DNA of 40,510 nucleotides from Verrucomicrobiota bacterium (GTDB lineage: Bacteria; Verrucomicrobiota; Verrucomicrobiia; Limisphaerales; UBA9464), in NCBI GenBank assembly GCA_029865985.1, contig JARXAF010000081.1, forward strand, positions 1 through 40,510, in the 5' to 3' direction. Position 1 is the first letter of the stretch; every line of letters starts with the position of its first letter. The notes under the pieces were generated by a model, which saw nothing but the letters and a program-made list of their open reading frames with translations, had not been told where the DNA came from and searched no databases. A program made the translations under genes and the position numbers. Below are positions 20,916 to 24,314 of this stretch, piece by piece.

Positions 20916-21138
20916 GGCCGCGTCGGGAACCTGTTGTGATGGAAGCAAGCGGGTAGCCGGAATGCCGGCTCAATTCAGCGCATCCATTTCCGCTCCAGCG
21001 GCTGCGCCGGATGGGGGGGACGGTCGGGTCGATGATCTGCCTTCGGGCTTGGCAAGTGACCACGTCTACGTCTGCGTTCGAACGTCGTTTTCCAGCTTGT
21101 CTTCAACGACCTTGATCTTGCTGGTAGCCAAGGGCTCA

Positions 21139-21168
21139 TTGATGTCGTTTAAAAAAGACAAATAAATT
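21139..21168 (+). promoter_or_regulatory. Possible promoter of the blaI-like gene
   Basis: TTGATG (21139-21144) and TAAATT (21163-21168) with an 18-bp spacer sit in a locally AT-rich stretch just before the operator-like palindrome. The fit is approximate and no transcription start is known. The preceding gap (20916-21203) holds no gene that I can support. Confidence 0.35.
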
Positions 21169-21175
21169 TACAAAG

Positions 21176-21187
21176 CTACAAATGTAG
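21176..21187. promoter_or_regulatory. BlaI/MecI-type operator palindrome
   Basis: CTACAAATGTAG is a perfect inverted repeat with a TACA-n2-TGTA core, which is the known operator core of BlaI/MecI/CopY repressors. A further half-site-like TTACA lies at 21168-21172. It is placed directly between the promoter-like boxes and the repressor start, as expected for autoregulation. Confidence 0.65.
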
Positions 21188-21203
21188 CGATACGGTGACT
21201 CCC

Positions 21204-21620
21204 ATGATCACCAACGCCTCTCTGCCGGAACTCACGGAGTCCGAGTGGGCCGTCATCAAGGCGGTTTGGCAGCTCGAGCCGTGTCCGGCGCCGACCGTGC
21301 AAGAGCACCTGGCCGGCCAGCGCGACTGGTCGGTGTCCACCGTCCGCACGGTGATGGAGCGCATGGCGGCCAAGGGTTTGCTTACCTCCGAGAAGCTCCG
21401 CAACCTGACCCTTTACCGCTCGGCGGTGTCGCGCCAACAGGCCCAACTGGGCGAACTGCGCTATGCCCTGAAGAACGCCTTCGATGGCGCGCTCACGCCC
21501 ATGGTGCAGTGCCTGCTCGAATCCGAGCGCCTCGACTCGGGCCAGCTGGATCAGCTCGAGGCCCTCATCGCGGCCCAGCGTCAGGCCCGAGCCATCAAAA
21601 TCCGCACCCGTAAACCCTGA
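21204..21620 (+). CDS. BlaI/MecI/CopY-family transcriptional repressor
   Basis: This is a 138-residue protein. The N-terminal winged helix shows the family pattern LTESEWAVIKAVWQ, a PTVQEHLA helix, the recognition helix WSVSTVRTVMERMAAKGLL and a C-terminal dimerisation helix. Family members bind TACA/TGTA palindromes and are inactivated when a partner M56 protease responds to a signal. Such a protease is encoded 11 bp downstream. ATG 21204 was chosen; a GTG at 21195 would add three residues. The repressor very likely controls its own operon through the palindrome at 21176-21187. Confidence 0.92.
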   Translation: MITNASLPELTESEWAVIKAVWQLEPCPAPTVQEHLAGQRDWSVSTVRTVMERMAAKGLLTSEKLRNLTLYRSAVSRQQAQLGELRYALKNAFDGALTPMVQCLLESERLDSGQLDQLEALIAAQRQARAIKIRTRKP

Positions 21621-21631
21621 TCCATCCGATC

Positions 21632-23545
21632 ATGACCGATCTCTTTGTCACTTTCTTGAACGCCGCGGGCCAGACCGCGGTCGTGGCCGGACTCCGCATG
21701 ACACTCCAGGCCACCGCGCTGACGGCCCTGATGCTGGCGCTCGACCGGGCGTTGCGGGATCGCGCCCGGGCCGCCCTCCGCTGTGGGCTCTGGATGCTGG
21801 TGGTGGTGAAGTTCCTGTTGCCCACCGACCTCCTCTCTCCCACCGCGTTGGCCTATTGGATCGTACCCCAGGTGGTCTCACCCATCCGTGCCCTCGGATC
21901 GGTGGATCAGGTCGATGGGGGCAGGGCCATCGGCAGCGAGGTCCCCGATCCGGTGCCTGCCGCGACGACCGATTTCAGACCCACTCCCCCGCAGCTCCGG
22001 TGGACCGGCGGGCTGCTGCTGGTCTGGGTGGGCGGGTCGATGGGCTTCGGGCTTTGGGCATGGGCCCGGGGTCGAGCAGTGGCCCAACGGCTGCGGGCGT
22101 CGACCGAGGCCCCGGAGGCCGTGCGGGCGATGCTGGCCGAGACCGCGGCCGACCTGGGATTGCACGGGCCCTTGCCCCGGGTGCTCCTCACCGACACGCA
22201 GCAGGGTCCTGCCCTGTGTGGGCTGTTGCGGCCGGTCATCCTGTTGCCCCGAGGGCTCATCGAGCAGCTCGATTCTCAGGCGCTCCCGCTGGTGTTGCGG
22301 CATGAGTTGATCCACCTCGCACGGCGGGACCTCGGGTGGAACCTGCTCCAGGTCTGCGTCCAGATCGTGTGGTGGTGGCATCCGTTGGTGTGGTTCGCCA
22401 ACGCCCGCGTCCGGGCCTTGCGCGAGGCGGCGGTTGATGAAGCCGTGATGCTGGAGCCGGGCTCCGACGAGTACCCCGCCACGCTGGTCGCCGTGGCCCG
22501 GACGTGTGTGATCCCGTCACGAATGCCCATGGCCTTCCTGGGCATTCTGGAATCCGGCGGCCGGCTCGAGGCCCGGATCCGACGCCTGGTGGAACGGCCG
22601 CTGCCTCGCAGTGCCCGCTTGGGCTGGGTCGGCTGGGTGACCGTGCTGATGGCCGGTGCGTTGTTCCTGCCGATGGGCTTCGCTCGGCGTGTCGAGACCC
22701 CGGCTTTGGCCGCGCTGGCGGCGAAGGCACCGACGGATCCGAAAACGCTCCCGGCGGGTGGTTCGACGGCGAGTTTGAAACCCATCCCGGCCGCCGCCGC
22801 GGAATTAAACTCCGCCTCCAAGGTTGAGCCGGCTGCGCCGGACAGCCTGCGGGCCGCCGCCAGTTCCGTCGTCCCAGCCATCGATGCGCCTTTGCAAGTT
22901 GATATCCAAGGGCGATTCGTCGAGATCCGCGGCTCCCTGCCTCCGGAGTTGGTTGGCGTGCTTTCCTCGAACCGTAGTTCCGTCCGGCTTACGGCGACGG
23001 CAACCCGTGACTTGATCAAGGTCTTCAATGAACGCGATGGGATCGATTTCCTGACCGCACCGCGTGTGATGACTTTGGCGAACCGTGCGGCGGAAATCTC
23101 AGTGTCGGATGTCCGAGCGATCGACGGCAAGAACGCGGGCCCAACCCTCCAGGTCATTCCCGACGTGTCGAACCCGGCCATCGAGCTCTCCGTCTTTGCG
23201 TCCATGGTGCAAGTTCTTGGAGATGGGTCCGATTCGAACGGAGCCTCCGAAACCTTGGTCCGAACCAACCTCGTCTGGGCCAGGGAGCGGAGCTGGATCT
23301 GGGACGGACAGAGTGTGCTCATCGATGTGGGAGCGCTTACCCACCGGGTGCGGTTCGTCGACAAGACGGTCTATTTGGGAGACCTCCCGCTCATCGGCGG
23401 GTTCTTCCGCAAGGAGGAGACTCAAGACCAGGTGAGTCGACTGTTCGTCCTGGTGACCCCGACGCTCATCGACGCCACCGGCCGCCCCATCCACGATCCG
23501 GCGCATCCGCCCTTCGATCCTGCGACGTTCCCGCCGAAGCCCTAA
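21632..23545 (+). CDS. M56 (BlaR1-like) membrane metallopeptidase with C-terminal secretin-like domain
   Basis: This is a 637-residue protein. Hydrophobic segments lie at about 10-38, 48-66, 125-145 and 330-350. The zinc motif HELIH is at 224-228, followed by WWWHPLVWF and REAAVDEAV, typical of BlaR1/MecR1 proteases. After a Pro/Ala linker (about 360-415), residues 420-615 carry elements of the secretin (GspD/PilQ) domain: a LTAPRVMTL segment (about 474-482), LQVIPDVSNP, a WDGQSVLI strand and the terminal GDLPLIGGFFR...VLVTPTLID. Classical BlaR1 carries a penicillin-binding sensor at this end instead. The sensing input may therefore be something other than beta-lactam. Which face of the membrane the C-terminus occupies is not determined. 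Confidence 0.85.
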   Translation: MTDLFVTFLNAAGQTAVVAGLRMTLQATALTALMLALDRALRDRARAALRCGLWMLVVVKFLLPTDLLSPTALAYWIVPQVVSPIRALGSVDQVDGGRAIGSEVPDPVPAATTDFRPTPPQLRWTGGLLLVWVGGSMGFGLWAWARGRAVAQRLRASTEAPEAVRAMLAETAADLGLHGPLPRVLLTDTQQGPALCGLLRPVILLPRGLIEQLDSQALPLVLRHELIHLARRDLGWNLLQVCVQIVWWWHPLVWFANARVRALREAAVDEAVMLEPGSDEYPATLVAVARTCVIPSRMPMAFLGILESGGRLEARIRRLVERPLPRSARLGWVGWVTVLMAGALFLPMGFARRVETPALAALAAKAPTDPKTLPAGGSTASLKPIPAAAAELNSASKVEPAAPDSLRAAASSVVPAIDAPLQVDIQGRFVEIRGSLPPELVGVLSSNRSSVRLTATATRDLIKVFNERDGIDFLTAPRVMTLANRAAEISVSDVRAIDGKNAGPTLQVIPDVSNPAIELSVFASMVQVLGDGSDSNGASETLVRTNLVWARERSWIWDGQSVLIDVGALTHRVRFVDKTVYLGDLPLIGGFFRKEETQDQVSRLFVLVTPTLIDATGRPIHDPAHPPFDPATFPPKP

Positions 23546-23632: not shown

Positions 23633-23899
23633 TCATTCGTAGTGAGTCCACAGTCGGAGGATCTTGACCGTTTTGACGACGGGGAACACCTGATACACCA
23701 CTCGGTGTTGGATGTTGATCCGCCGGGAGTAGGCGCCGGCTAGGTCCCCCACCAGTTTTTCAAACGGCGGAGGGTTGCGGAAAGGGTCCTCCGCGAGGAT
23801 CTCCAAGAGTTGAATCGCCTTGGACTTGAGGCCACTGGCGGACAGCTTCTTGGCGTCTTTCTGGGCCTGTTTGGTGTAGACCAATTGCCAGACTACCAT
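23633..23899 (-). CDS. yoeB: YoeB/Txe-family mRNA-interferase toxin
   Basis: This is an 88-residue RelE-fold toxin that, in this family, cuts mRNA on the ribosome. Features are a start WQLVYTKQAQKDAKKL, LAEDPFRNPPPFEKL, then SRRINIQHRVVYQV and the terminal HY pair of LWTHYE. These include the expected Glu47, Arg66 and His86/Tyr87 equivalents. Its start ATG (23897-23899) overlaps the end of the antitoxin gene by seven bases, so the pair is translationally coupled. The protein is full length and shows no damage. Confidence 0.92.
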   Translation of the reverse strand: MVVWQLVYTKQAQKDAKKLSASGLKSKAIQLLEILAEDPFRNPPPFEKLVGDLAGAYSRRINIQHRVVYQVFPVVKTVKILRLWTHYE

Positions 23900-24135
23900 G
23901 GCAGGCGGGTGGAGCATCGGTCGACCGGCGTCTCCATGCCCGCTCGTATGGAGTCCCTCATGCCCGGAATCGATAGCAGGAACAATGTCTCCTGGATCGC
24001 GCTCCAGTCCTCTTCGGACATCAGGATCGCATTCGTGCGCTTTCCAGTGATGTGGATGGGCTCATGCGACGCGGCCGCCTGATCCATGAGCGAATACAGG
24101 GAAGCTCGTGCTTCGGTGGCCGACAGACTCAACAT
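23893..24135 (-). CDS. yefM: YefM/Phd-family antitoxin
   Basis: This is an 80-residue protein. The N-terminal YefM-type DNA-binding domain begins LSLSATEARASLYSLMDQ and continues PIHITGKRTNAILMSEEDWSAIQE. The C-terminal LFLLSIPGMRDSIRAGM is the toxin-wrapping helix typical of YoeB partners. The start at 24135 is placed at the family's usual MLSL; a longer frame to 24183 is less likely. The pair would repress its own promoter, which lies in the 24136-24314 gap shared with the divergent PSD1 gene. Confidence 0.9.
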   Translation of the reverse strand: MLSLSATEARASLYSLMDQAAASHEPIHITGKRTNAILMSEEDWSAIQETLFLLSIPGMRDSIRAGMETPVDRCSTRLPW

Positions 24136-24314
24136 GAGTGAAGAACGTACGTAAAACCGTCCGCTGATCAAGTGGCAATCCACTCACTGGGTCTCATTTG
24201 CTCGCTTTCCCACTCCCCCGATCTTGCACTCGGGGTGGCCAGAGTGGACTGGTCCTCGGTCGAATGGCGCCTAGCGCCGGATCGTCAGCTTGCCTAGACT
24301 CTTGAATAGTTCTC

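Follow-up and report, generated by a model that had tools for sequence, protein, structure and literature searches.

A two-gene locus in a verrucomicrobial bacterium (assembly GCA_029865985.1, contig JARXAF010000081.1) raises the question of what a BlaR1-type membrane protease senses when a domain resembling a secretin stands where the penicillin-binding sensor is normally found. An earlier note on the 40,510-nucleotide stretch of DNA analysed here (the window), made from the sequence alone, had described such a protein together with a BlaI repressor encoded just upstream, and had proposed a secretin-like interaction rather than a beta-lactam as its input. We find that the gene product is neither BlaR1 nor a functional secretin; it represents a variant form of BlaR1-BlaI signalling in which the ectodomain is unusual and the regulon apparently limited to the operon itself. 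In our judgement the pair quite likely forms a proteolytic, self-inducing circuit of the BlaR1 type with a dedicated BlaI, its ligand being left unnamed. The features of the locus are collected in Table 1.

Table 1. Features of the BlaI-fusion gene locus, numbered from the first base of the window.
Feature	Position	Strand	Basis or remark
-35-like hexamer TTTACA (putative)	21167..21172	+	Directly upstream of operator; TTGACA there in genus mates
Candidate BlaI operator, perfect palindrome GCTACAAATGTAGC	21175..21188	.	15 bp upstream of blaI ATG
BlaI/MecI-family repressor, 138 aa	21204..21620	+	PF03965, E 2.1e-25; ORF open from GTG at 21195
M56 protease-secretin fusion protein	21632..23545	+	Single open frame, 637 aa
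M56 (BlaR1-type) membrane metalloprotease core, residues 21-275	21692..22456	+	PF05569, E 1.6e-32
HELIH zinc/catalytic motif, residues 224-228	22301..22315	+	H224, E225 and H228 invariant; aligned to BlaR1 HEYAH (H201, E202, H205)
REAAVDE, second gluzincin motif E265XXXD269	22421..22441	+	Invariant; E265 aligned to BlaR1 E242
GILES, residues 304-308	22541..22555	+	I305, E307 and S308 invariant, 14 homologues
Low-confidence Ala/Pro-rich linker, residues 347-418	22670..22885	+	pLDDT <50
Secretin-derived domain, residues 421-613	22892..23470	+	PF00263, Foldseek, VIA-align
Secretin signature GDLPLIGGFFR, residues 583-593	23378..23410	+	Aligned to GspD LGDIPLLGQLFR (phmmer)

The fusion protein consists, in order, of a complete M56 (BlaR1-type) membrane protease, the low-confidence linker and the secretin domain, and Pfam finds Peptidase_M56 and Secretin alone. 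Both assignments are reached alike with Pfam, with searches of PDB sequences and with AlphaFold/Foldseek. The AlphaFold model of the whole protein (24 homologues, mean pLDDT 69) matches secretins (E 2.5e-8) as well as BlaR1 cryo-EM structures (E 3.3e-5). Since only two segments of the protein pass a strict hydropathy threshold, its four predicted membrane helices rest on the model and on homology.

The protease half belongs to MEROPS M56 (Pfam Peptidase_M56), scoring 113 bits against a curated cut-off of 31, and an N-terminal profile of the fusion family matches Staphylococcus aureus BlaR1 (8exp, E 7.9e-10). BlaR1 is defined by H201EXXH and E242XXXD, with D210 and Y261 critical as well (PMC9834060). 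In a profile alignment the essential BlaR1 residues map to H224, E225, H228, E265, D269, D233 and Y281, which are invariant among 14 homologues, and the first histidine is separated from the glutamate of the second motif (E265, or E242 in BlaR1) by 41 residues in both proteins. The BlaR1 core described in the earlier note is borne out. If the alignment is extrapolated, the BlaR1 autocleavage site Ser283-Phe284 would fall near GILES. The NCBIfam equivalog blaR1_generic reaches 70 bits against a cut-off of 400, and a Pfam search of the fusion finds no penicillin-binding (class-D beta-lactamase-like) sensor domain.

The assignment of a secretin fold to the C-terminal domain rests jointly on sequence and structure. 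Pfam Secretin (PF00263) covers residues 472-613 with E 2.6e-11 (43.8 bits, cut-off 27.5) and the C-terminal part alone gives E 1.6e-12, both above the curated cut-offs, so that a secretin core is present. Searched against PDB sequences, the C-terminal part matches secretins only (GspD, RcpA, PilQ, pIV and others; best E 2.7e-7). A model of the secretin part alone (29 homologues, pLDDT 74, pTM 0.70) was compared with known structures: the 40 best PDB matches in Foldseek are all secretins and are the sole ones with E <0.001 (E up to 1.4e-6), and the first 28 rows from VIA-align are likewise all secretins (Z 8.2-11.8, the highest being pIV), the next row having Z 7.0. The rmsd of the structural superposition is large (7-10 Å) because the relative placement of strands is uncertain in a monomer model. 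The earlier note had suggested residues 415-620 as the decisive region; there, Pfam, phmmer, Foldseek and VIA-align all matched secretins alone, and its reading of a secretin-like domain instead of a penicillin-binding sensor holds. The motifs that it named lie where it had placed them, LTAPRVMTL (474-482) and VLVTP (606-610) as well as HELIH and GDLPLIGGFFR. Pfam detects no Secretin_N domain in the window protein, and the first part of its secretin core is shortened. Every NCBIfam cut-off for the named equivalogs GspD, PilQ, SctC and Amuc_1098 is missed, the best scores being 37 bits for GspD (cut-off 351) and 42 bits for Amuc_1098 (cut-off 750). Anchoring by the M56 membrane part argues against an outer-membrane location of the domain.

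The fusion recurs across the order. Strong matches to the M56 half of a related protein (P0007) occur in about 55 of its 293 genomes, and M56 is joined to a secretin domain (E <1e-10) in 38 further ORFs from 12 families, among 52 loci examined. This recurrence in independent assemblies rules out a frame error or misassembly. Nearly all complete M56-secretin loci have BlaI as a neighbour. Other genomes thus carry the fusion too, and its BlaI linkage is conserved; these are the two points on which the earlier note had asked for a wider search. Eight proteins, the window protein included, went into the secretin profile, and detection in those eight is thus by construction; Pfam independently finds the domain in them and, above its cut-off, in seven further ORFs. 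A DNA scan of genome contigs returned three loci only. Outside the order, our profile detects no secretin domain in 20 M56 loci with long genes; a profile search across the phylum scored only two candidates per genome, too few to show that the fusion is absent from other classes. As two M56 subtypes exist, the two halves may have been brought together, or the fusion transferred, on more than one occasion.

The secretin half shares 88-90% of its residues with four genus mates (pS 0.16-0.21) and has a dN/dS of 0.22-0.33 against them, which indicates selection for retention of the domain. Over the first 120 residues identity falls to 43-44% (pS about 0.6). This mosaic divergence of 21632-23545 from L044-L047, in which synonymous distance steps along the gene, suggests intragenic recombination within the fusion gene.

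Related and neighbouring genes show further arrangements. One M56 protein, P0009 (L053, 5927-9616), has two secretin-like domains in a single chain. At 20986-21149 of the window, on the reverse strand, a second and divergent M56 protein (P0012 of G006) has left a remnant of its C-terminal end in two frames; an intact divergent BlaI-M56 pair is kept beside the fusion in genus mates and has been lost here. The C-terminal part of P0012 (L044, 10048-11661) bears a weak resemblance to a polysaccharide chain-length determinant (TIGR03007, E 0.005), a further case of an M56 core joined to a part from envelope export. A YoeB/ParE-type toxin and a Phd/YefM antitoxin are encoded at 23633-24183 on the reverse strand, convergently to the fusion gene.

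The repressor gene ends 11 bp before the fusion gene, the order being blaI then M56. Its product matches MecI structures (E 3e-11) with a gap-free alignment over 113 residues. The scissile bond of MecI, which we take to be N101-F102, aligns to Cys-Leu here, a different residue pair, which is a point against the proteolytic circuit. Upstream of blaI, TACAAATGTA at 21177-21186 is the sole TACANNTGTA in the window (0.01 expected), in agreement with the linked BlaI and operator of the earlier note, whose start at 21176 falls within the palindrome. Genus mates, and members of the order more widely, have the same kind of site ahead of BlaI. Among 55 BlaI-M56 pairs, 42 upstream regions, spanning many families, contain TACANNTGTA, where Markov copies of these regions would give 0.09; these are not 42 independent events, because the pairs are related and four divergent pairs share one site. 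Variants such as GCGACAACTGTAGC occur in G003, G013, G014 and G015. TTGACA starts 10-11 bp upstream of the operator core in 14 cases, and lies 20 bp downstream of the start of an upstream operator copy in 13 cases. The -35-like hexamer of the locus itself is a putative assignment, since a sigma-70 promoter scan scored nothing there.

The operator is found at few other places. A search of 20 whole genomes for TYTACANNTGTARA places it almost exclusively at the promoter of the module, with one extra site, in G632; by this stricter pattern three of the 20, the genome of the window included, have no exact copy. A relaxed search (18-base pattern, two mismatches allowed, reversed-pattern control) gave a second match in many genomes that is a second dyad 30-33 bp away in the same promoter, the other sites being scattered at about the frequency of the control. 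No downstream gene common across families was found. With a private operator and no shared downstream gene, the circuit appears to control itself alone. Judged from these patterns, the repressor appears to regulate its own operon only, unlike its bla and mec counterparts, and neither the operator nor the downstream genes point to control of a beta-lactamase or PBP2a gene. The fusion is not BlaR1, because neither the sensor domain nor a resistance target was found. The private operator, and hence the apparently self-only circuit, goes beyond what the earlier note could see. The second M56 subtype has a separate operator, ACTACNNNGGTARTA, in seven of eight genomes and at one place per genome; at L054, L055, L157, L159 and L160 this subtype carries a secretin domain, and the near-unique operator is ACTACNNNGGTARTA or a close variant.

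Collectively, the sequence comparisons support the architecture, the intact catalytic residues, the secretin origin, the BlaI linkage, the private conserved operator and the order-wide distribution. Given its homologous domains, intact protease and linked BlaI, the module likely works by proteolytic derepression. In the resting state a BlaI dimer would occupy the operator just behind the -35 element of its own promoter and keep the two-gene operon low. The secretin-derived domain, following TM4 and the flexible linker, would be periplasmic and meet a partner there; this contact would cause a change through the membrane helices, upon which the cytosolic zinc protease would cleave BlaI and the operon would be induced. 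As no further operator site is detectable in the majority of the genomes searched, the product that rises would be the protease-secretin protein itself, which could be sensor and effector at once, or whose amount the loop could set. In this scheme we infer the cleavage of BlaI, the topology, the direction of signalling and the ligand.

As partner we tentatively prefer a misassembled secretin, or one mislocalised to the inner membrane, for example that of a type IV pilus, through contacts between like domains; that such a secretin is the signal is a possibility that we hold with some doubt. The genome has three other secretin genes (C19, C91 and C190), and PspA and PspC gave no match in it (92% complete). 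PspBC forms a complex with mislocalised secretin multimers and is both regulator and effector (PMC5596341), and this precedent, taken with the undetected PspA and PspC, strengthens the guess a little. It is rather unlikely, although conceivable, that the locus carries out secretin surveillance and does the work of Psp, in which case the borrowed secretin domain would recognise a misassembled secretin, the private repressor would be cleaved, and more of the fusion would bind and neutralise the threat. That sensor and effector would then be one polypeptide, in a self-contained verrucomicrobial system, is just as speculative.

The main rival, to which we give odds similar to those of a secretin ligand, is that the secretin fold is a reused scaffold for some other periplasmic or envelope ligand (a peptide, glycan, lipid or drug), the link to secretins having been lost and signalling proceeding as in BlaR1. 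The sensor domains evolve fast, have long branches and fall outside the true secretins in the tree, a split that is weakly supported (72/53); a recent descent of the domain from a single true secretin was rejected on the same weak separation. Recognisable secretin signatures have been lost in some relatives (the domain is degenerate or unrecognisable in P0008, L129 and L133), so that not every member of the family needs a ligand of strictly secretin shape. The shortened core and missing N-domains of the window protein also favour a reused fold, as do the CarboxypepD_reg, Big_1 or SecDF_P1_head ectodomains of M56 proteins from other classes, which imply that ectodomain swapping is common. Retention of the core signature GDxPLxGxxFR...VTPTxID in most members speaks against this rival, and so do the N-domain-like stretches kept in the longer relatives, which have TPR motifs as well and some of which give weak Secretin_N matches.

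We consider it improbable that the unit acts mainly as an effector and less as a sensor, being a membrane protease aimed at secretins by its secretin domain for quality control, while BlaI would do no more than set its amount. The protease itself is the only known output, the operator being private and other targets unseen, and the undetected PspA and PspC would suit such a role; however, the M56 active site is cytosolic by homology (PMC9834060), on the other side of the membrane from periplasmic secretins, and BlaI, the known M56 substrate, is a conserved neighbour, which favours signalling.

A classical regulator, in which BlaI also represses outside genes through sites missed by the consensus, has a comparably small chance of being correct. 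Known bla and mec systems do have outside targets, and TACANATGTA has three copies in the 3.6-Mb genome of the window: the operator at 21177-21186, a site near a SUMF1-like gene (C55) and one between prolyl-oligopeptidase-like and VCBS-repeat-like genes (C191), these gene names being putative and read from sequence. The C55 and C191 sites were rejected as operator targets because flanking symmetry is absent, and extra targets elsewhere were rejected because the additional sites of genus mates differ, several lying inside long open frames; weaker sites are about as common as in the control. Weaker BlaI targets could escape the patterns used in this genome of 216 contigs. Finally, although a bla-type pair does consist of BlaI and an M56 protein, an ordinary beta-lactam sensor, or an artefact of chance, frame or assembly, is so improbable that we set it aside, given that Pfam finds no penicillin-binding domain, that the fusion recurs in the 38 other ORFs and that a conserved downstream operon partner is absent.

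The unit is conserved in many verrucomicrobial families as a two-gene, apparently self-regulating pair, and is probably an envelope sensor that has not been described before. The earlier note knew of no described system of this design, and our literature search, outside which most subscription papers lay, likewise found no paper joining BlaR1 or M56 with a secretin in these bacteria. If our reading is true, the locus is a candidate secretin or pilus stress response for poorly studied bacteria, and its closed loop predicts that the responding genes are those of the sensor's own operon only.

Other M56 proteins of Verrucomicrobiota share the BlaI neighbour, the M56 core and a long C-terminal part, but their ectodomains are of the other kinds named above and, in the 20 loci outside the order, our profile found no secretin domain. 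One BlaI-linked M56 protein (L227, 1116-5225) carries a SecDF P1-head domain (E 5.4e-20), another part of an export machine. With secretins (GspD, PilQ, RcpA, pIV and the Amuc_1098 type IV pilus family) the window protein shares the core fold and signature motifs; unlike them, it places the domain on an inner-membrane protease, without N-domains and with the first part of the core shortened. The Psp response would be alike, if the guess at the ligand is right, in being an inner-membrane system specific for mislocalised secretins, but here a protease and BlaI would signal in place of PspA-PspF, and PspA and PspC were not found in the genome. The closest likeness is to BlaR1-BlaI and MecR1-MecI of Staphylococcus aureus, with which the locus shares an M56 gluzincin having all key catalytic residues, a model that matches BlaR1 cryo-EM structures, and an adjacent BlaI/MecI-family repressor with a TACA-N2-TGTA operator. 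It differs from them in that a secretin-derived domain replaces the class-D beta-lactamase-like sensor, no resistance gene is seen, the operator is limited to its own promoter and blaI precedes the M56 gene. BlaR1-BlaI is known almost solely as a penicillin-resistance switch; a conserved branch whose ectodomain derives from secretins and whose operator is private and self-only would, if true, mean that the same switch also reports the state of the envelope.
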